Positions 11,308-33,718 of a DNA stretch of 41,540 nt are shown piece after piece. This stretch comes from Patescibacteria group bacterium. GTDB taxonomy: Bacteria > Patescibacteriota > Microgenomatia > UBA8517. Every line of letters starts with the position of its first letter. Position 1 is the stretch's first letter. The DNA lies in contig JAHJHG010000001.1 in assembly GCA_018823885.1 (NCBI GenBank), forward strand, positions 172,645 to 214,184, written 5' to 3'. The notes beneath the pieces are model-generated. The model was given only the letters and a program-made list of their open reading frames with translations, did not search any database and was not told where the DNA came from. A program made the position numbers and the translations under genes.

Positions 11308-11523
11308 TTATTCACTCTTGTCTTGCATCCCTAGAAGCCAGAGGACAGCTTCTTTTTTATACCTGCGGTCGCCTCGGGAATTAATGCGAATAGCAGGAAG
11401 TTTTCCTCGTTTACCCCAACGCTTAATGGTTAATGGAGAAACTCTTAATAGTTCGGCAACTTCTCTGACTGTCAATAAATCTGGAAGTTCGTCTAATCTT
11501 AGTTTTTTCTTTGCGTCAGCCAT
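11308..11523 (-). CDS. Small helix-turn-helix (excisionase/MerR-like, HTH_17) DNA-binding protein
   Basis: LLTVREVAELLRVSPLTIKRWGKRGKLPAIRINSRGDRRYKKEAVLWLL. Confidence 0.88.
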   Translation of the reverse strand: MADAKKKLRLDELPDLLTVREVAELLRVSPLTIKRWGKRGKLPAIRINSRGDRRYKKEAVLWLLGMQDKSE

Positions 11524-18872: not shown

Positions 18873-19043
18873 AGTTACTAATTTAGCTTTTTTTACTTAA
18901 TATTGCCAGAGTAAAAAATAATTAAATCTCAAAAATATTTTACTCCTTTATCTTCAATAAAACACCATTGACAGAAAGTTCGGGATTTGTCTTAATTAAT
19001 GTTGACTAAACTTATACATTCGAGGCTAAATATTGCATAATCT

Positions 19044-22000
19044 ATGTCGCTGCCCGCTGATAAAAAATTACTTACGATTGGTGAAGCCTCTGCATACCTT
19101 GATATATCTGCTGACACACTTCGTCGTTTAGAGGCTAAAGGGAGAATAGAGCCCAAACGAGGCACATACAATGAGCGACTATATTCTTTGGATGACGTAT
19201 TGCTCATTCGGGGCATCATAAGAAAAACTCCTTCTAGTCAAAAAACCTATTCTATAAAGGAAGCTGCAAACTTATTGAATATTTCTTCGCAAACCATAAG
19301 ACGCTGGGAAAAGGAAGGCAGAATTAAGACCAAAAGAACTTCGGGGGGGCATAGATATTTTACTTATAAAGATATACAGGAAATTAGAAATATCAAATTA
19401 CAACCCAAAACAAGACAGGAAATCCAGATCCCTCCCAAAGAAATAGTTAGGGTCATAGGAGAGCCTTTGCCTTCTGCTCCTCAGGAAGCTTTTGTATCTA
19501 ATCCCCCGTTTTCTCTCTTTGATTTTAAACTGATATCTTTTGTTCTGGTAAGCAGCCTTTTGATATTCATAGCTAGTTATCCTTCTAATATAGAGCACCT
19601 GATCAAGAAAATGGCAGGAATACCAATACCTGAAGAGGAATTGGTATCTATTCCTGAAGGAGACTGGTTAAGTGTCTTGTCTGCTCAGGGAGGTGTGTAT
19701 GAAGGTGATGTGGGTATCACGGGTGATGTTGATATTGTTGGTAATTTGAATGTTTCCTTGACAACTACTACTAAAGATTTGGTTGTTAGCTATAGTGCAT
19801 CAATGTACAGTCTTTCTGTCACTTCTGGTTTGGTGGTATCAGGTAATGAAATAATAAATTCATCAGGGAAAATACCTGCTTTGAATGGAAGTTACTTTGC
19901 AGACTTGAATGGAGAGAACATATCAAATGTTGATGCTCACCATCTTGGTGGAGTAGCAGCTTCTTCCTTTTTAAGAAGCAATGAGGTGGATACAGCTGAA
20001 GCTGTCATTAACTTCACTGCCTCCCCTGGCAGTACGGATGTTAATGGAGGGCCGGTATATATTAATCCGGCTGCATCCACCTCAGACTATACCCTCTTTG
20101 GTATTGCTCTTGGAGGCTCACAGAGATTTAAAGTAGATGCAGAAGGAGATGTCTCCATTGCAGGAAATACGACTGTTGATGGGACAATATATGGTTCTTT
20201 TTCAGGCACTATTAATCTTGGATTTACCCAAGGCTCTGTCATCTTCCAAGGGTCAAGTGGTTTTGCCGAAGACAATGCCCAGTTTTTCTGGGATGAAACT
20301 AACAACAAACTTGGTCTTGGTACCACCTCTCCCCTCTCCCTCCTTCATATTGCCACCAACACTACTACCTTAACCGGTAAATCAGCATTAATTATTGATC
20401 AACTTGAAACTGAAGATATCTTTACTGCCTCGGCTTCTGGGACACCAAAGTTTGTGATCGATAGTAGTGGAAATGTTGGCATTGGGACAACATTGCCCGA
20501 TGCTCCTTTGGAAGTTTCGGGCAGAATATCTCAAATAGACTTAGGTGATAGCAATTACTTAGGCTACAAAGCTGGGTATGTTGATGATTTAACTAGTAAT
20601 AAAAATATTGGAATTGGCTATTATTCTCTTTCCTCAAACACCTCCGGCTACGTCAACACCGCCATTGGGTATGCGGCGCTTTACACTAACATCTCCGGCT
20701 ACGCCAACACCGCCATTGGGTGGGACACTCTTTTCCGCAACACTGGCGACAAAAACACCGCCATTGGAGCATCTTCTCTCCGCGAGAACACCACTGGCTT
20801 CTCCAACACCGCCATTGGAAATCAGGCGATGAACGAAAACACCGAGGGTTACGCCAACATCGCCATTGGAAATGCGGCGTTTTACACCAACACTTTGGGT
20901 GACGAAAATGTCGCTTTGGGCTACGCCGCCCTTTACAAAAACACCACAGGTAGCTTTAATAGCGTGGTTGGAGTAAACGCACTCCGTGAGAACCAAACCG
21001 GTTCAGAAAATACTGCCGTGGGCTATCAAGCAGGTTTTGGAGTTTCAGCCAACTCATATTCTAACAACGCCCTGTTCGGCTTTAAGGCAGGATACGCACT
21101 AACGACCGGTAGCAGTAATGTCCTTCTCGGTTATCAGGCCGGAGATAATCTGACCAGCGGTGGGACAAATATTGTCATCGGGTACGACATTGACGCCCCG
21201 TTGGCGACAAGTACCCAAACGCTAAATATCGGCAATCTTATTTTCGCCACCGGACTGGACGGTATTGGAACAACCATTTCGTCCGGCAACGTCGGTATAG
21301 GAACCACGAATCCAGATTCCTTATTGACATTATATTCTACAGCATCTGAAACAAAAGCAACGATTGAGTCTAATAATGCTGATGGAGACGCTCTCCTTGT
21401 TTTTGAAAACACAGGAGTACAAGCATGGACCATTGGGCAAGATGATGGTGACAGTGATAAATTCAAAATCAGTAAAATTGAAGGATTTACTGATCCTGTA
21501 ATGACACTTGATACATCTGGTTATGTCGGTATTGGGACGGCGAATCCGGGAGCAACTTTAGCAGTAGAGAACAGCACCAACCCCACTATTAGAATAGGCG
21601 AAGGAGGGGTGACTAATAGGTTAATTGATATCAAGGTTGATACGACTAATAGTGTCGCTTACATAGACTCTTCGTTTTATTCGGGCGGGGCATTTCCACT
21701 CGTATTCAAAATCGGTTCCGGTGAGAAGGTTAGAATAGACACCAATGGCAGGGTCGGTATTGGGAGGACACCCTCTACAGCTAACCTATTGGAAGTTGAA
21801 GGTACTGCTTCCAAGACAGCTGCAGGAGATTGGTTGGCTAATTCTGATATTAGAATAAAGACAGATGTGCAGGATTTGAGTAATGCTCTTGATATCATAG
21901 ATTCTCTTCGTCCGGTTAAGTTTAAATATACAGATGAATATATGGCTGCTCATCCTTCTCTTGAAGACAGGTATTATTACAACTTCATTGCTCAGGAGTT

Positions 22001-22757
22001 TCAAGAAGTATTCCCTGATTCCGTTCAAGACAGTGGAGAAAATGGATATTTACAATTAGATGCCTACAACGTTCGTCCTTACCTTGTAGCAGCCATGCAA
22101 GAATTGAATACCAAGGTAAAAGCATTAGAGTTAGGATCAGAGAGTAATCCAGATAATGATAATGAGGCTGAGAATTTAGAAAGTGAAGAAGAAAATGAAC
22201 CTGAAGATGAAACAGTCAATGGCTTGATATCAAGAATGGATATTTTAGAAACAGAAATGCTGCTTCTTCAGTCCTCTTTTGATCTTGCCTCCCCCACTGA
22301 AGCGACAGATAGCTCATTCCTAACCTCTTTAACTGTCCTTGGTGATTCTGTACTTGGAGATACGGTCATTAATGGAAGGTTGGATATAGGGATACTCTCT
22401 TTTGATAATCTCACTGGTTCAATTGACGCCATTGGGCCTTTAAAATTACAACCTTTAGCTCTTGCCCCAATAGAATTCGTAGGTGGTGCCATTGAAATGG
22501 ATCAAGAAGGAAATCTTGATATCAAGAAAGGAGTTGTAAAAGGAAATGAGAAAATAAGAGAAGCGGCTGAGATACTCCCCAACCAAACGTCTATCGTAAT
22601 TCAAAAAGAATGGGAAACCCCACCTGTCTCCATACTTGTTACACCATCCTACAATGCCCAGGGATGGGTAACCGATATTACAAACTCGGGGTTTACAATC
22701 AATGTAGACAAATCCCCCACTATTACCGAAAAACTCTATTGGTGGGCAATCTGGTAA
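19044..22757 (+). CDS. Membrane-anchored fibre-like protein: two N-terminal MerR/IS607-type HTHs, one TM, GIGT and YadA-head-like beta repeats, peptidase S74 chaperone, C-terminal beta module
   Basis: HTH1 LTIGEASAYLDISADTLRRLEAKGRIEPKRG; HTH2 YSIKEAANLLNISSQTIRRWEKEGRIKTKRTSGGHRYF; TM FDFKLISFVLVSSLLIFIAS (~19518-19577); repeats NTAIGYAALYTNISGYA...; S74 SDIRIKTDVQDLSNALDIIDSLRPVKFKYTDE...YNFIAQEFQEVFPDSV. Confidence 0.93.
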   Translation: MSLPADKKLLTIGEASAYLDISADTLRRLEAKGRIEPKRGTYNERLYSLDDVLLIRGIIRKTPSSQKTYSIKEAANLLNISSQTIRRWEKEGRIKTKRTSGGHRYFTYKDIQEIRNIKLQPKTRQEIQIPPKEIVRVIGEPLPSAPQEAFVSNPPFSLFDFKLISFVLVSSLLIFIASYPSNIEHLIKKMAGIPIPEEELVSIPEGDWLSVLSAQGGVYEGDVGITGDVDIVGNLNVSLTTTTKDLVVSYSASMYSLSVTSGLVVSGNEIINSSGKIPALNGSYFADLNGENISNVDAHHLGGVAASSFLRSNEVDTAEAVINFTASPGSTDVNGGPVYINPAASTSDYTLFGIALGGSQRFKVDAEGDVSIAGNTTVDGTIYGSFSGTINLGFTQGSVIFQGSSGFAEDNAQFFWDETNNKLGLGTTSPLSLLHIATNTTTLTGKSALIIDQLETEDIFTASASGTPKFVIDSSGNVGIGTTLPDAPLEVSGRISQIDLGDSNYLGYKAGYVDDLTSNKNIGIGYYSLSSNTSGYVNTAIGYAALYTNISGYANTAIGWDTLFRNTGDKNTAIGASSLRENTTGFSNTAIGNQAMNENTEGYANIAIGNAAFYTNTLGDENVALGYAALYKNTTGSFNSVVGVNALRENQTGSENTAVGYQAGFGVSANSYSNNALFGFKAGYALTTGSSNVLLGYQAGDNLTSGGTNIVIGYDIDAPLATSTQTLNIGNLIFATGLDGIGTTISSGNVGIGTTNPDSLLTLYSTASETKATIESNNADGDALLVFENTGVQAWTIGQDDGDSDKFKISKIEGFTDPVMTLDTSGYVGIGTANPGATLAVENSTNPTIRIGEGGVTNRLIDIKVDTTNSVAYIDSSFYSGGAFPLVFKIGSGEKVRIDTNGRVGIGRTPSTANLLEVEGTASKTAAGDWLANSDIRIKTDVQDLSNALDIIDSLRPVKFKYTDEYMAAHPSLEDRYYYNFIAQEFQEVFPDSVQDSGENGYLQLDAYNVRPYLVAAMQELNTKVKALELGSESNPDNDNEAENLESEEENEPEDETVNGLISRMDILETEMLLLQSSFDLASPTEATDSSFLTSLTVLGDSVLGDTVINGRLDIGILSFDNLTGSIDAIGPLKLQPLALAPIEFVGGAIEMDQEGNLDIKKGVVKGNEKIREAAEILPNQTSIVIQKEWETPPVSILVTPSYNAQGWVTDITNSGFTINVDKSPTITEKLYWWAIW
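20641..21045 (+). repeat. Coding tandem repeats, ~51-bp (17-aa) period, NTAIGxxALxxNxxGxx
   Basis: NTAIGYAALYTNISGYA / NTAIGWDTLFRNTGDK / NTAIGASSLRENTTGFS / NTAIGNQAMNENTEGYA / NIAIGNAAFYTNTLGDE / NVALGYAALYKNTTGSF / NSVVGVNALRENQTGSE / NTAVGYQAGF. Confidence 0.9.
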
Positions 22758-22815: not shown

Positions 22816-24369
22816 ATGAACAATATCCCTAAAACAGTTCTGGTAATCATGGACGGCTTTGGTTTTAATCCAGACACGCAAGGTAATGCGATTCTGGCGG
22901 CTAAAACTCCTAACCTAGATCATCTCTGGTCATACTACCCCCACACGCTTCTCAAGGCGTCGGAGGAGGTAGTTGGTCTCTCCTTTGGCCAGATAGGCAA
23001 TAGTGAAGTTGGCCATATGGCCCTAGGCACAGCGAGGGTGGTGGCATCAGCCAATCAGAGAATTACTGAAAGTATACAAAACAGTTCTTTCTTCAAAAAC
23101 GAGGCATTTCTCTCTGCCATTGCCTATGCCAAAAAAAATAATTCCAAACTTCATCTTATCGGAATGATTTCGACCGCTGGGGTCCATGCTGACGTAAATC
23201 AAATGATTGCCTTAATAAAAATGGCCAAAGAAAATGGAATCGTAAACCTTGTTTTACACCCAATATTAGACGGGCGAGATACCAAACCTAAAGAAGCACA
23301 AGTCTACCTTGACATGCTTTTGGCCGCTATTAAGCAATATGGCATAGGAACAATTGCATCCATCTCCGGAAGAAGCTATGCCATGGACAGAAACAGTAAC
23401 TGGGAAAAAACGCGTCTTTATTATGAAACCCTGGTAGGTACGTCTAAAACAATAGCCAACGACCCCGCTGAAGTCATTAAACAATCTTACGCTCAAGGTC
23501 TAGATGACGAAGGTGTATTGCCAACTATTATTAATCCGAGTGGGAAACTAGACAATTCCGATGCGATAATCATCACCAACTTCCGAGGCGACAGAGCGAG
23601 ACAAATCACCCACACCCTCATTGATTCTGATTTTTCAGGCTTCGCTAGGTCTGTTTACCCCACAAATCTCTATATTGCTTCCATGACAAATTACGAGGAA
23701 GGAATTGGAACTCAAGTTGCTTTTCCATCGAATGATGTACCTAACACTCTTTCTCACGTCATTGAGCAAAATGGTCTTACTCAACTACACATTGCCGAAA
23801 CTGAAAAGTATGCTCATGTCACCTATTTTTTCAAAGGGGGTCAAGAAGCAAAATTGCCCCACGAAGATTCCGTCCAAATACCTTCCGATCCACCAAATAT
23901 GTTTCTCGAGAAACCAGAAATGAAAGCCAGAGAGATTACAGATTATGTTTTAAAAGATTTGGAAGCCTCAAAGCACGACGTATTAATCATCAATTTCGCC
24001 AACCCCGATATGATTGGACATACCGGCCATTTCGATAAAGCGGTCAAGGCAGTAGAAACTGTTGACGAGTGTATCGGGAAAATCACCCAAAAGGTACTTA
24101 GTTTGAATGGCTTCCTTTTTATCGTATCCGACCATGGAAACGTCGAACAACTAACAGATGTCAGCACACACGATCCATCAAAAGACCATACCACCAATCC
24201 TGTACCGTTTATCAAAGTGTCGTCTCAAGGAAAGAAAGAAGGACAACTAACCCGAATAACAATGAATGATAAAGTAACCGGTATTTTACAAGATGTGGCT
24301 CCAACAATACTGACCTCTCTTAATATTCCTGTTCCTACGGAAATGACTGGAGTTAATTCATTTGAGTAA
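22816..24369 (+). CDS. gpmI: 2,3-bisphosphoglycerate-independent phosphoglycerate mutase
   Basis: VLVIMDGFGFNPDTQGNAILAAKTPNLD...QIGNSEVGHMALG...HPILDGRDTKP...SDHGNVEQ. Confidence 0.96.
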   Translation: MNNIPKTVLVIMDGFGFNPDTQGNAILAAKTPNLDHLWSYYPHTLLKASEEVVGLSFGQIGNSEVGHMALGTARVVASANQRITESIQNSSFFKNEAFLSAIAYAKKNNSKLHLIGMISTAGVHADVNQMIALIKMAKENGIVNLVLHPILDGRDTKPKEAQVYLDMLLAAIKQYGIGTIASISGRSYAMDRNSNWEKTRLYYETLVGTSKTIANDPAEVIKQSYAQGLDDEGVLPTIINPSGKLDNSDAIIITNFRGDRARQITHTLIDSDFSGFARSVYPTNLYIASMTNYEEGIGTQVAFPSNDVPNTLSHVIEQNGLTQLHIAETEKYAHVTYFFKGGQEAKLPHEDSVQIPSDPPNMFLEKPEMKAREITDYVLKDLEASKHDVLIINFANPDMIGHTGHFDKAVKAVETVDECIGKITQKVLSLNGFLFIVSDHGNVEQLTDVSTHDPSKDHTTNPVPFIKVSSQGKKEGQLTRITMNDKVTGILQDVAPTILTSLNIPVPTEMTGVNSFE

Positions 24370-28492: not shown

Positions 28493-28678
28493 AGTTTTAT
28501 TCTACTACCTATTTCATAATAATTTCCATTCCAGAAAGAAAGATGTCGTGTTTTTCAGATTATAAGCCCAATAAATTAAAGCGTAAATAAAATATACATA
28601 CCCTTGACTTCTTTTGACAGCTATGCATAAATCTATGTTAGGCAATCTTAGGTATTTGAGGCTAAAAACTGTCCAAAC

Positions 28679-31600
28679 ATGTCACTGTCCACACGAAGTC
28701 TATTTACTATAATACAGGCTGCTGAGATTCTTGGTGTTTCCCCAAAAACAATAAGGAGACTTAAAAGCAAAGGAATTGTTAGTCCCCAGAGAGGAAGTAA
28801 TCGCCAAATACTCCTTTCTATCAAAGATCTCGATATACTGCGCAATGTTCTAAAAAAACCCCTTGACAGCAAAACATATTCTGTTGCTGATACAGCTAAA
28901 ATACTCGGTGTTTCAAAAGACACCATACGTCGCTGGGAAAAGGAAGAAAAATTGGAATCGATAAGAACGACTGGTGGGCACAGAAGATTCGCGACAGAAG
29001 CGATACGAGGGGTAAAGGAGAAAAAATATCAGCCACAGACAAAAATTACTATTCCCCCTCAGGAAATAATTAAAGTTATTGATTATCCTTTTCCCAGTTC
29101 TCCCCCATTTTCCTCAGAGCACTATATATTTAACCTAAAAATGATATCTTTTATGGTATTAAGTACCCTTTTGATAACTATAGCAATGGGTCCTGCATTC
29201 ATTGCTTCCAAGCTTACTCTTTTACAACATGGCATTAATCAGCTTCAAACACAACTGACTCAGATCACAAGAGAAGAAGAAGGATATCCTGTCGGGAATC
29301 TTGCTGCCGTCCTATCTTCCTCAGAGGGTGTTTATGAAGGCGATGTTCAGATAGTAGGACAAGTTTTAATTACTGGACAAAGTATTTTTGAAGAGTACGT
29401 TAAATTCAAGAAAGGTGCTGAATTCGGTTCTTCCCCCTTGATAATAGACAGTGTAGGGAACTTAACCACTGACCAGAATATAACTACCGAAAGTCTCGTC
29501 GTGGAAGGAGACATTAGCTTAAGTAGGTTATCTGTTGCTGGTAATGAAATTATTAATTCCTCAGGCAAAATTCCAGCTATAAATAACTTGTATTTTGAAA
29601 GTTTGAGTGGGAAAAGCCTAACAGATGTTGATGCCCATCATCTCAATGGTGTGGCTGCCTCATCATTTTTAAGAAGTGATCAGGTAGACACAGCTGAAGC
29701 AACCATTAACTTCACGGCTTCACCCGGAAGCACCAATGTAAATGGAGGACCGGTATATATTAATCCTGCTGCATCCACCTCAAACTATACCCTCTTTGGT
29801 ATTGCTCTTGGAGGCTCACAGAGATTTAAAGTAGATGCAGAAGGAGACATAGTGGCATCAGGCGATATTCAAATATCTTCCGCTGGTAAGCAGTTCAAAC
29901 TATCAACAAATACATCAGATCCAACTGCATTAGGCTCAGGTTCTCTTTACTTTAACACCTCTTCAAGTAAGTTAAGAGTATATACAGGCAGTAGTTGGAG
30001 TGATATTTCGGGCGATATGACTGGTAGCGGTACGGCAAACTATCTTACTAAATGGACAGCTTCAAACACTCTAGGAGATTCCGTTATTCAAGAATCATCT
30101 GGACAAATAGGAATAGGCATCTCCCCCTCCCAAACTCTTGATGTTAATGGTGATATTAGAATACGAGGTGGAGAAATATATCTTGACGGTCTTTCAACTT
30201 CCTCTTCAACCACCGATGGAACAATCTATTTTGATACTGATGACAACAACCTTTATCTCTATGCAAACAGTGCGTTTAATAAAGTTGGTTCTGATTTAAC
30301 AAAATACACTGCCAATAATGCTTCTCTTGCTGATGGTGGCTATCTTGAAGTGGCTCATAATGAAGGAACAAATGACATTATGATTTCGGGCTGGATATAC
30401 GACGGTAGTAAATATATCGAAATAGATGACCATGCTCAAACAACCCTAAATATCCAAGATCCAAATCTCATCGGATGGTACAAAATGGAAGAAGCATCAG
30501 GAGATCTTGATAACGCCGAAGGAACTGCTCCACGAGATTTGATAGACAAGGGCACACCCACTTACGCACAAACAGGGCACATCAATAGCGCTATTTCTCT
30601 TGATGGTACAAGTGATTATTTTTGTACAGGCACAGACACTACTTGTGCAGATAATAATGATTTCGATTTTGGTTCCAGTTCATTTTCCATTGGAGGTTGG
30701 TTTAAACACGACACCATATCAACAAATAGCGATTATATAGCCGTGAAGTATTCTGATACTGCGTCAGTTGACTCTGGAGATGGAGATGATGGTGCCATTA
30801 CTGTCTCCGTAAACACCAATATCAATACCACTGATCTTATTTCCGCGAGATCTTGTACGGAAGGTGGGGATGCTGTTAATTATAATGTTTCCGCTTTAAC
30901 CAGCACTACTGCCACTCTTACTTCTACTCCCTCCGCAGGTTGTCTTGCAATTGGTGACGAGGTTTTATTAATCAATCTTCAAGGAGGAACTTCTGCCTAT
31001 TCTAATGTTGGTAATTATGAAACATTAAGAATTCAAAGTATTGCTGGTGCCGTCGTCACTTTTACTACCTCAAAATTAAATTATTATGGAGATGGTGCTA
31101 GTGATGACACCAACCTTGGAACAGCAATAGGCACACAACGAGTTATGCTTCAAAGAGTGCCGAATTATACTTCTGTTACTGTTAATGATGCCATTAATTT
31201 CTATCCTGATGATTACGCTGGGTCTAAGGGTGGAGTGATGTTCTTTAGGGCTACTGGGGCTGTTGCTATCAATGGAACAGGAAAGATCCATGCCGACGCC
31301 AAAGGATATCGAGCAGGAATTGAAGGAAGTGGGAATTTCCTGGGTGGAGGTGGAGGTGAAGCCTTCTGTGGCCCCACGGGCACGGCCGGAGGAGACGGTG
31401 GTGACTACAACGCCCGAGATGGCGGCAATGGTAGCTGTGGTGGAGGTGGCGGAAGCGGTGTGGATGATACTGCCCAAGGTACTCCAGGCACAGGTTCCGC
31501 ATCTGCCGGCGGTGCTGGAGGTGGAGGTGGAGCAGCCGAAGATGGTAATAGTACTGGTAATGGTTACGGTGGAGGCGGTGCTGGAGGTGGATACGGCACT

Positions 31601-33718
31601 ATTGGATACAAAGGGACTAATTATAACAGTGGAGGTACACCAGGCGATGGCGGAACAAACAATTCTGGCGATGGCGGAAAAGGATATGGATCCGTAGATA
31701 ACCAATACGGTGGTATGGGTGGAGGTGGAGGCACCTATGGTGATGTTAATTTGACTGATCTGTTCTTTGGCTCCGGTGGTGGAGCTGGTGGTGATGGGGA
31801 TTCATATGTTGATGGTTCTCTAGAGGGTGGTAACGGTGGAGATGGAGGAGGAATTGTTTACATTGCAGCTGATTCAATCACCGTCAATGGCTTCTTAAGT
31901 AATAATGGCGGCAACGGTAGTGTCGGAGAAAGCAGAGGAGGAGGTGGTGGAGGTGGTGCTGGCGGATCATTGAAATTGATCAGCGACACGATAAATTTAG
32001 GTACAAGCAAAGTCACAGCCACTGGAGGTACAGGAGGCAATACATCTTACGCTGACGGTGGCGCTGGTGGAGATGGACGAATCCATGCTGACTATGTCAC
32101 TTCAACATCAGGAGACAGCGATCCTGTTTATGATAGTTCCCAGGTTTCTGCTAGTGCCGGAGGTTACAAGCTCTATATGGAATCGGATGGTGATATAACT
32201 TTTGCCATTGATGATGATCAAAACTCCTTCCCTGAAGATTCAACTACTACCACACCCGCTAATTACGACGACAATAGTTGGCATCATTTAGCTGTGGTTA
32301 AAAGCGGTTCATCCTATATCAAAATATATATCGATGGTCTGGAAATGGCCGCAGATTACTCCATAGCCGCAAACACCTCTATTTCCAATGATGATCCTTT
32401 CTATCTTGGAGTTGATTCAGACGGTTCATCCAATCCATGGCAAGGATTATTGGACGAGATGTTTGTATTATCCCGAGATCTTTCTGCAGGAGAGGTGGGA
32501 GAATTATATCGGTCCAATAGTCGCTTTTATATTGAACAAACCGATAACAATACTGTCAGGATGTATAATTACACAGGTGAAACGCAAAATATTCGCTTAG
32601 ATGTTCTTGTTTTTGGGGCAGATTTAGCCGAATGGTATCCAACAAATGATGATTCCATTGAGGCTGGAGATGTTGTTAAAACGATAAGCGAAAAGGATAA
32701 ATATGGTGTGCCCAAAATGGCTAAAACAAATATCAAAGGTGACAATAAAGCAATTGGTATAATCTCTACAAGGGCGGGACAAGAATTGGGTTTGCCTGGT
32801 CTAGACAGACGCCTCGTTGCCCTTTCAGGTAGAGTACCAGTAAAGGTTGACCCCGATTCCCCAACTATTTCTGCTGGTGACTTCATTACAGCCTCAGATA
32901 ATCCAGGATATGCCAGAAAAGCAGAATCCGGTGATTACTATGTAGGCAAATCCCTTGCCTACTGGGAACCGGAATCTGAAAATTCAATGGTTACCGTCTT
33001 TTTGACTTTAGGTTTCTTGTATACCAACCTTAATCAAGACCCAAACCAAACAACAACTACTGATATAGAAAACGTAGAACTTAATCAAGAACAAACCGAT
33101 ACAGACCTACCTTGTATTAATTACTCCTACGAAGAAAGAATTAAATTGTTGGAAGAAAGCCTCGAGAAGTTAGATGAACAAGTATCCGGACTTACAGACC
33201 TTTACTTTTCGTCTGTATCCCTAAATGGAGTAGATAGTGATACTTACTCATCCTCAATAGATTCCCTGGTCGTTCTTGGTAAAAGTACTCTAGGAGATAC
33301 TTTCATAAATGGAAAATTGAACGTAGGCACGCTCTCTTTTGATAACCTTACTTCCTCAATTGACGCCATCGGTGTTTTAAAAATTCAGCCTTTGGCTTTA
33401 GGAAATATCGAATTTATGGACGGACTGGTAACAATAAACACCTCAGGCAATATGATCGTCAATGAAATAGCGGCCAAAAAGTACAAAGTCTCAGGCAACT
33501 CTGCAGGCTCAGATTATATTAATTCAGGACATACGGGCGTATGGGTTGAAACAGACGCTGTACACCCCAACTCTTTAATCTTTATCACACCAACAACGAT
33601 TACTGATTCCCCCCTATCCGTAACTGAAAAGTCCTCTAGTTCCGGCTTTAGAGTGGAAACAGAAAAACCAGTAGATAAAGATATTCACTTTGACTGGTGG
33701 ATAATCGAAAGCGAGTAA
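28679..33718 (+). CDS. Membrane-anchored fibre-like protein (paralog): two N-terminal MerR/IS607-type HTHs, one TM, beta repeats, LamG domain interrupted by Gly-rich insertion, peptidase-G2-like region, C-terminal beta module
   Basis: HTH1 FTIIQAAEILGVSPKTIRRLKSKGIVSPQRG; HTH2 YSVADTAKILGVSKDTIRRWEKEEKLESIRTTGGHRRF; TM FNLKMISFMVLSTLLITIAMG (~29129-29191); LamG halves around poly-Gly; ADLAEWYPTNDDSIEAGDVV...ALSGRVPVKVDPDSPTISAGDFITASDNPGYARKA. Confidence 0.92.
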   Translation: MSLSTRSLFTIIQAAEILGVSPKTIRRLKSKGIVSPQRGSNRQILLSIKDLDILRNVLKKPLDSKTYSVADTAKILGVSKDTIRRWEKEEKLESIRTTGGHRRFATEAIRGVKEKKYQPQTKITIPPQEIIKVIDYPFPSSPPFSSEHYIFNLKMISFMVLSTLLITIAMGPAFIASKLTLLQHGINQLQTQLTQITREEEGYPVGNLAAVLSSSEGVYEGDVQIVGQVLITGQSIFEEYVKFKKGAEFGSSPLIIDSVGNLTTDQNITTESLVVEGDISLSRLSVAGNEIINSSGKIPAINNLYFESLSGKSLTDVDAHHLNGVAASSFLRSDQVDTAEATINFTASPGSTNVNGGPVYINPAASTSNYTLFGIALGGSQRFKVDAEGDIVASGDIQISSAGKQFKLSTNTSDPTALGSGSLYFNTSSSKLRVYTGSSWSDISGDMTGSGTANYLTKWTASNTLGDSVIQESSGQIGIGISPSQTLDVNGDIRIRGGEIYLDGLSTSSSTTDGTIYFDTDDNNLYLYANSAFNKVGSDLTKYTANNASLADGGYLEVAHNEGTNDIMISGWIYDGSKYIEIDDHAQTTLNIQDPNLIGWYKMEEASGDLDNAEGTAPRDLIDKGTPTYAQTGHINSAISLDGTSDYFCTGTDTTCADNNDFDFGSSSFSIGGWFKHDTISTNSDYIAVKYSDTASVDSGDGDDGAITVSVNTNINTTDLISARSCTEGGDAVNYNVSALTSTTATLTSTPSAGCLAIGDEVLLINLQGGTSAYSNVGNYETLRIQSIAGAVVTFTTSKLNYYGDGASDDTNLGTAIGTQRVMLQRVPNYTSVTVNDAINFYPDDYAGSKGGVMFFRATGAVAINGTGKIHADAKGYRAGIEGSGNFLGGGGGEAFCGPTGTAGGDGGDYNARDGGNGSCGGGGGSGVDDTAQGTPGTGSASAGGAGGGGGAAEDGNSTGNGYGGGGAGGGYGTIGYKGTNYNSGGTPGDGGTNNSGDGGKGYGSVDNQYGGMGGGGGTYGDVNLTDLFFGSGGGAGGDGDSYVDGSLEGGNGGDGGGIVYIAADSITVNGFLSNNGGNGSVGESRGGGGGGGAGGSLKLISDTINLGTSKVTATGGTGGNTSYADGGAGGDGRIHADYVTSTSGDSDPVYDSSQVSASAGGYKLYMESDGDITFAIDDDQNSFPEDSTTTTPANYDDNSWHHLAVVKSGSSYIKIYIDGLEMAADYSIAANTSISNDDPFYLGVDSDGSSNPWQGLLDEMFVLSRDLSAGEVGELYRSNSRFYIEQTDNNTVRMYNYTGETQNIRLDVLVFGADLAEWYPTNDDSIEAGDVVKTISEKDKYGVPKMAKTNIKGDNKAIGIISTRAGQELGLPGLDRRLVALSGRVPVKVDPDSPTISAGDFITASDNPGYARKAESGDYYVGKSLAYWEPESENSMVTVFLTLGFLYTNLNQDPNQTTTTDIENVELNQEQTDTDLPCINYSYEERIKLLEESLEKLDEQVSGLTDLYFSSVSLNGVDSDTYSSSIDSLVVLGKSTLGDTFINGKLNVGTLSFDNLTSSIDAIGVLKIQPLALGNIEFMDGLVTINTSGNMIVNEIAAKKYKVSGNSAGSDYINSGHTGVWVETDAVHPNSLIFITPTTITDSPLSVTEKSSSSGFRVETEKPVDKDIHFDWWIIESE

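Follow-up and report, generated by a model that had tools for sequence, protein, structure and literature searches.

Candidate self-regulating surface fibres of Patescibacteria with predicted DNA-binding heads and an operator-like element at their own promoter

Introduction

Membrane-bound one-component regulators such as CadC and ToxR combine a cytoplasmic winged helix-turn-helix (wHTH) with one transmembrane (TM) helix and an extracytoplasmic C-terminal part. RodZ also has a cytoplasmic HTH, which binds MreB, one TM helix and an extracytoplasmic beta domain. Here we describe p1, a protein encoded in a 41,540-nucleotide stretch of a Patescibacteria genome of the class Microgenomatia (the window; positions 172,645 to 214,184 of contig JAHJHG010000001.1, assembly GCA_018823885.1), in which two MerR-type wHTHs are joined through a disordered linker to one TM helix, beyond which come a phage-like fibre and an S74 domain. 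In the animal myelin regulatory factor MYRF an S74 domain stands between the DNA-binding domain and the TM helix, and its cut frees the regulator (PMC3742443). In the Bdellovibrio MAT proteins a signal peptide precedes the conserved, beta-rich N-terminal domain of ~130 residues (PMC10769870).

Patescibacteria are tiny and mostly uncultured, with small genomes and few regulators, and how they recognise and attach to other cells is largely open. A preliminary description, made from the letters of the window, had read p1 as a one-protein link between cell surface and DNA that might serve transcription control, chromosome tethering or DNA uptake. Our analysis adds a downstream paralogue (p2), a clade-wide distribution, interchangeable tips and an operator-like site at the fibre gene's own promoter, which would point to self-regulation.

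Architecture and topology of p1

The two tandem MerR-type HTHs proposed for p1 are borne out by Pfam, which places MerR_1 (1e-21), MerR (2.3e-20) and HTH_17 (2.5e-16) twice each, and by AlphaFold, which modelled both winged HTHs with a predicted local distance difference test score (pLDDT) of ~95; the model of the heads and TM helix was built with 15 family members. The classical SGGHRYF wing is present in wHTH 2 as described, but only there, the wing of wHTH 1 being degenerate (RGTYNERLY). Known proteins matched by the p1 HTHs are CarH, BldC and RacA, in each case in the DNA-binding domain, and a Foldseek search with the head model returned the DNA complexes of RacA, NmlR and BldC, with RacA on DNA as the best match. 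BldC contacts DNA through Arg30, Trp31 and His46-Arg48 (PMC5859096), and the corresponding R-W and H-R-R positions (TLRRWE, GGHRRY-type) are kept across members and families. The C-terminal dimerisation coiled coil and effector domain of classical MerR proteins are not present in the p1 model, in which the disordered linker leads directly to the TM helix.

A single TM helix had also been expected, and residues 159-178 form a helix of membrane length (pLDDT ~90) that is the only hydrophobic segment to stand out. Across 63 family members the part before this helix is basic (mean net charge +8.5 per 100 residues, minimum +1.2) and the 400 residues after it are acidic (mean -5.8 per 100 residues, maximum +0.2). 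The positive-inside rule was uninformative on the 15-residue flanks of the helix (32 vs 23), and whole-domain charge was used instead. This charge split, together with the folded DNA-binding domain and the absence of a signal peptide, points to a topology with the N-terminus inside (N-in), which would place the DNA-binding head in the cell and the fibre outside, in keeping with the earlier prediction. In 58 of the 63 members, against ~18 expected from shuffles, the TM helix is followed, mostly within 75 residues, by a VL[ASG] motif; this may be where the chain is cleaved or where the fibre begins.

Beyond the membrane, p1 matches tail spike (2.7e-39), tail fibre and virion structural proteins in PHROG, and in the PDB its fibre matches the Bdellovibrio MAT fibre Bd2133 (8ond) as well as 8oml and 8on4; with the Pfam match to Peptidase_S74 (Table 1) this agrees with the body originally proposed. 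The S74 domain retains the dyad Ser934/Lys939 in the sequence SDIRIK (pattern SDxxxK). The monomer AlphaFold model of this part was unusable (pLDDT 47).

The layout extends across the clade

We found the HTH-TM-fibre layout in more than 80 proteins across Microgenomatia and two further Patescibacteria families, the largest being 5310 residues long. Of 50 genomes in the window's family at least 21 have it, and many further cases came from searches of the class and the phylum; the nearest named relative of p1 is from Ca. Woesebacteria RBG_13_46_13. Members with a single HTH are more common than those with two. Of 22 fibre-type proteins added later, 21 have one TM helix and 19 the VLA motif. The nearest HTHs outside the clade, in a genome scan, were in proteins lacking both TM helix and fibre. 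The layout sought was HTH-TM-S74; the N-terminal arrangement is clade-wide, but S74 occurs in only 5 of 63 layout proteins, of which 26 are complete. We have therefore rejected S74 as the defining feature of the class, and it is one among several interchangeable tips.

An operator-like element at the fibre-gene promoter

We set the upstream regions of 61 fibre genes against those of 186 control genes in the same loci. The top 6-mer in an unbiased count was TTGACA (52 of 61 fibre upstreams, 27 of 186 controls), and many of the fibre genes have in common a strong promoter with this word. Among 7-mers other than variants of this word, TTGGACA (18/61 vs 5/186, p 1.7e-8) and TTAGACA (17/61 vs 5/186, p 6.8e-8) stand out, and the inverted repeat TTGGACA-N13-TGTCCAA, allowing two mismatches, precedes 20 of the 61 genes and 3 of the 186 controls (p 4.7e-11). 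A palindrome measure with no preset motif was also raised relative to control genes (p 4.6e-5).

The elements stand in a fixed order in the window's family, TTGACA-N17-cTTAAT-aAA-TTGGACA-N13-TGTCCAA, and in 12 genes the first arm lies 32-34 nucleotides from the -35 element, that is, at about +1. The perfect repeat occurs at 14 sites in the 50 genomes scanned; five are preceded by a promoter, and all five are at HTH-TM-fibre genes, so that in this family a promoter-linked site at fixed distance is nearly exclusive to fibre genes. A lenient promoter-plus-repeat scan of 374 genomes of the class gave 12 matches against 5 for the reversed pattern, and all five matches with TTGGACA- or ATGGACA-type arms were at fibre genes already known. 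At the position that the repeat has in relatives, the p1 and p2 genes share a 32-nucleotide element, found also in locus L055 (loci of the comparison carry L numbers).

The word GAGGCTAAA recurs upstream of fibre genes, in the window at 19020-19030 and 28656-28666 and also in L040, L044, L117 and L119, and AGGCTAAA precedes 10 of 61 fibre genes and 2 of 186 control genes. The recurring GAGGCTAAA is perhaps part of the operator or of a translation control. A correspondence between two HTHs and a direct repeat fitted p1, p2 and L055, failed for the other double-HTH proteins and was dropped. For RPNGK-type HTHs, an association with CCTATGCA sites is no more than suggestive (n=6).

A proposed self-regulating fibre

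We consider the best explanation to be a membrane-tethered, self-regulating surface fibre, a reading we hold with moderate confidence. The p1 chain would be inserted N-in through its one TM helix. Outside, chains would probably trimerise into a phage-type fibre that contacts other cells or surfaces, with S74 driving trimerisation and cutting at Ser934. Inside, the BldC/MerR-type heads would bind the site just downstream of their own promoter and repress it, and the count, or state, of fibres in the membrane would thereby set their own synthesis. We infer DNA binding, repression, trimerisation and S74 cleavage from the features described above, and regard repression of the fibre gene by its own heads as probable, well short of certain. 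Of the uses first suggested for the heads, the operator-like site supports transcription control; DNA uptake found no counterpart, no uptake genes being seen nearby. That events at the fibre alter the DNA-bound state of the heads, signalling from outside to inside, is conjecture. Bolder still is the idea that throughout the class the contact fibre serves as the transcription factor for its own gene, with attachment, assembly or loss outside changing operator occupancy through one TM helix and the gene held at the membrane by its product; we think this possible but doubtful.

Several points weigh against self-repression. The p1 and p2 genes themselves lack a clear inverted repeat, and the element they share matches only modestly (23/32, reached by 2 of 200 shuffles). 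It has no other copy at up to three mismatches in the 756-kb genome, which leaves only the two sites, but the pattern was built from these same sites and only the absence of others is informative. The arm of the inverted repeat was picked after the promoters had been viewed, which makes the unbiased word counts the safer figures, and the related genomes that enter the promoter statistics are not fully independent. Of the later 22 fibre-type proteins, 5 gave TTGGACA half-sites and only 2 a good inverted repeat. Since the word is rare in this set, which comes from other families, the operator type would be family-specific, and we rejected a universal TTGGACA operator in favour of one confined to some families. 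Finally, a trimeric fibre does not match a two-fold DNA site unless two heads pair or the HTHs act as monomers.

Alternative explanations

It is possible, at a low probability, that another regulator reads the promoter element, for example a solo BldC-like protein of 68-95 residues, or that the element acts as a hairpin in the 5' RNA; the fused HTH would then have some other partner. Such a solo protein is present in most genomes of the class, and an mRNA with inverted repeats at its 5' end could fold into hairpins. However, the half-site of each arm varies independently of the other and direct repeats occur too, a pattern that suits a DNA site better than a hairpin. The type of site also tracks the wing type of the fused HTH: TTGGACA accompanies 0 of 9 HTHs with a GGTRLY wing, which have other shared words instead, against 16 of 38. 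In the window's family, moreover, perfect promoter-linked sites are at fibre genes only.

Tethering is similarly unlikely; here the heads would anchor either the chromosome or the fibre locus at the membrane below the fibre, with repression absent or secondary. The heads resemble the MerR-like anchor RacA in both structure and sequence, and a site at its own gene would likewise keep the fibre gene at the membrane. Against this, the specific sites found are single and lie over the transcription start rather than being dispersed, although dispersed sites of degenerate sequence may exist besides. With the specific sites at the fibre gene's own promoter, chromosome tethering as the main role, one of the uses first suggested, is not supported.

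Regulated proteolysis is improbable. A cut near the VLA motif and another in the membrane would free the heads as a soluble regulator, as in MYRF or regulated intramembrane proteolysis. The frequency of VL[ASG] after the TM helix would suit such a cut, and S74 cleaves itself in MYRF and MAT fibres (PMC3742443, PMC10769870). The S74 cut in p1 would fall far outside the membrane, however, leaving the heads bound, and the VLA motif may merely mark the fibre start; no protease was identified.

Less probable again is a role in protein docking, in which the HTH would hold a partner such as MreB, as RodZ does, and not DNA. The overall layout is that of RodZ and mreB lies near the fibre gene in the window, L037, L117 and L136, yet the DNA-contact residues are kept across families, the operator-like site accompanies the gene, and the Pfam match of p1 to the RodZ-type HTH_25 is weak (E 0.11, against 1e-21 for MerR). 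An assembly artefact or chance fusion of regulator and fibre can be dismissed: many contigs do end within these repetitive genes, but the fusion is uninterrupted in more than 80 loci, single-contig genomes included, with the promoter at the HTH end.

Paralogue and gene neighbourhood

Table 1. Features of the window, with solo HTH genes of three further loci
Feature	Position	Strand	Remarks
Solo BldC-like HTH	~11358-11475	-	also L055 8113-8331; L066 7308-7526; L128 18840-19046
Fibre-gene promoter	18968..18996	+	TTGACA 18968-18973, 17-nucleotide spacer, CTTAAT 18991-18996
Putative operator	18999..19030	+	ATGTTGACTAAACTTATACATTCGAGGCTAAA; position where relatives carry TTGGACA-N13-TGTCCAA
Fibre protein p1	19044..22757	+	1237 residues, uninterrupted open reading frame
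wHTH 1	19068..19220	+	residues 9-59, degenerate wing; Pfam and AlphaFold
wHTH 2	19248..19397	+	residues 69-118, TIRRWE and SGGHRYF wing; Pfam, AlphaFold, structure and sequence matches
Disordered linker	19398..19517	+	residues 119-158, proline-containing; AlphaFold
TM helix	19518..19577	+	residues 159-178; hydrophobicity and AlphaFold
VLSA motif	19674..19685	+	residues 211-214; p1 form of VL[ASG]
Fibre body	19686..21842	+	beta repeats of phage tail or trimeric adhesin type
S74 chaperone-protease	21843..22025	+	residues 934-994; Pfam Peptidase_S74 1.1e-14
C-terminal module	22296..22754	+	residues 1085-1237; common to p2 and several relatives
iPGM	22816..24369	+	directly downstream of p1; conserved locus neighbour, outside the proposed mechanism
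Putative operator of p2	28635..28666	+	ATGTTAGGCAATCTTAGGTATTTGAGGCTAAA; same element as before p1
Paralogue p2	28679..33718	+	1679 residues: two HTHs, TM helix, fibre, LamG_3, ADLAEWYP module, p1-type C-terminal module

The p2 gene lies 6 kb downstream of p1. The two proteins are 43% identical over their N-terminal alignment and have an upstream fibre segment and the C-terminal module in common; a LamG_3 domain and another module stand where p1 has S74. A fibre segment (GGSQRFKVDAEGD and others; residues ~256-405 of p1, ~282-400 of p2) is near-identical next to heads of only ~43% identity, which suggests recombination between the two genes.

In relatives the fibre gene is often divergent to a conserved secreted protein of ~258 residues (a cluster in 40 loci), and lies near iPGM in 17 loci and ATP-synthase genes in up to 23. 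The ~258-residue neighbour (L035-L065, L110-L149) has a C-terminal TM helix and almost no Pfam match, is followed by iPGM and/or ATP-synthase genes, and in parts resembles a segment in the C-terminal half of p2. We dropped it as a co-regulated partner, the inverted repeat being mostly absent from its promoter. A prophage or tail-fibre gene was rejected, as the neighbours are housekeeping genes; phage records gave matches to HTH proteins only, across about half of the N-terminal query, and the sole viral contig match was a soluble HTH of 64 residues. The gene order points to an old chromosomal locus, neither phage nor recent fusion.

Other HTH proteins were seen in these genomes. Short HTH-linker-TM proteins of 154-231 residues (L058, L060-L064, L159) have few residues outside, and many end in SPIP or SPLP; in several genomes these membrane-tethered HTHs without a fibre adjoin one recurring gene pair on the opposite strand. 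Another HTH type (TNTIYxYLxxG) is joined to proteins with many TM helices (L054; L058 2905-4941; L059). A family of ~240 residues, widespread in Patescibacteria, combines a MerR-type HTH with an apparent GHKL-ATPase-like domain (GEIGNNSFDHNLGNWPD..ADRG.GI; L150-L153, L156-L158, L160, L209, L210). A solo BldC-like HTH protein of ~70-95 residues occurs in most Microgenomatia genomes examined, and is a possible global regulator and rival reader of the promoter element.

Comparison with known systems

Like MYRF, p1 is a single chain that combines a DNA-binding domain with a TM helix and an S74/ICA domain of phage type, with the N-terminus on the DNA side (PMC3742443). The order differs, being HTH-TM-fibre-S74 with S74 outside, beyond the TM helix, so that its cut could not free the heads, and the DNA-binding domain is an unrelated, MerR-type wHTH. 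The predicted cytoplasmic HTH, single TM helix and extracytoplasmic domain are shared with CadC and ToxR, but here the HTH is of MerR/BldC type, the ectodomain is a fibre of 600-5300 residues rather than a small sensor, and the predicted target is the protein's own gene. With the MAT fibres p1 shares a phage-type bacterial beta fibre with exchangeable tips, S74 among them or not (PMC10769870), whereas its N-terminus is wHTH-wHTH-TM in place of a signal peptide and ~130-residue domain. BldC (PMC5859096) and RacA have the same MerR-like wHTH fold, and the BldC contact residues are kept; both are soluble, without TM helix or fibre. Unlike RodZ, p1 keeps the DNA-binding residues and has a fibre for its ectodomain.

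If the proposal is correct, one protein both contacts the outside world and controls its own production, an adhesin that counts itself and a bacterial counterpart of animal MYRF with the parts reordered. The proposal is directly testable, since it specifies a target sequence, a binding domain and key residues. We found no description of the HTH-TM-fibre layout in the literature (open-licence PMC papers). The parts and the general idea are already known from membrane-bound regulators, MYRF, MAT fibres and BldC; their combination in a giant, probably self-regulating surface fibre was not found in that literature.

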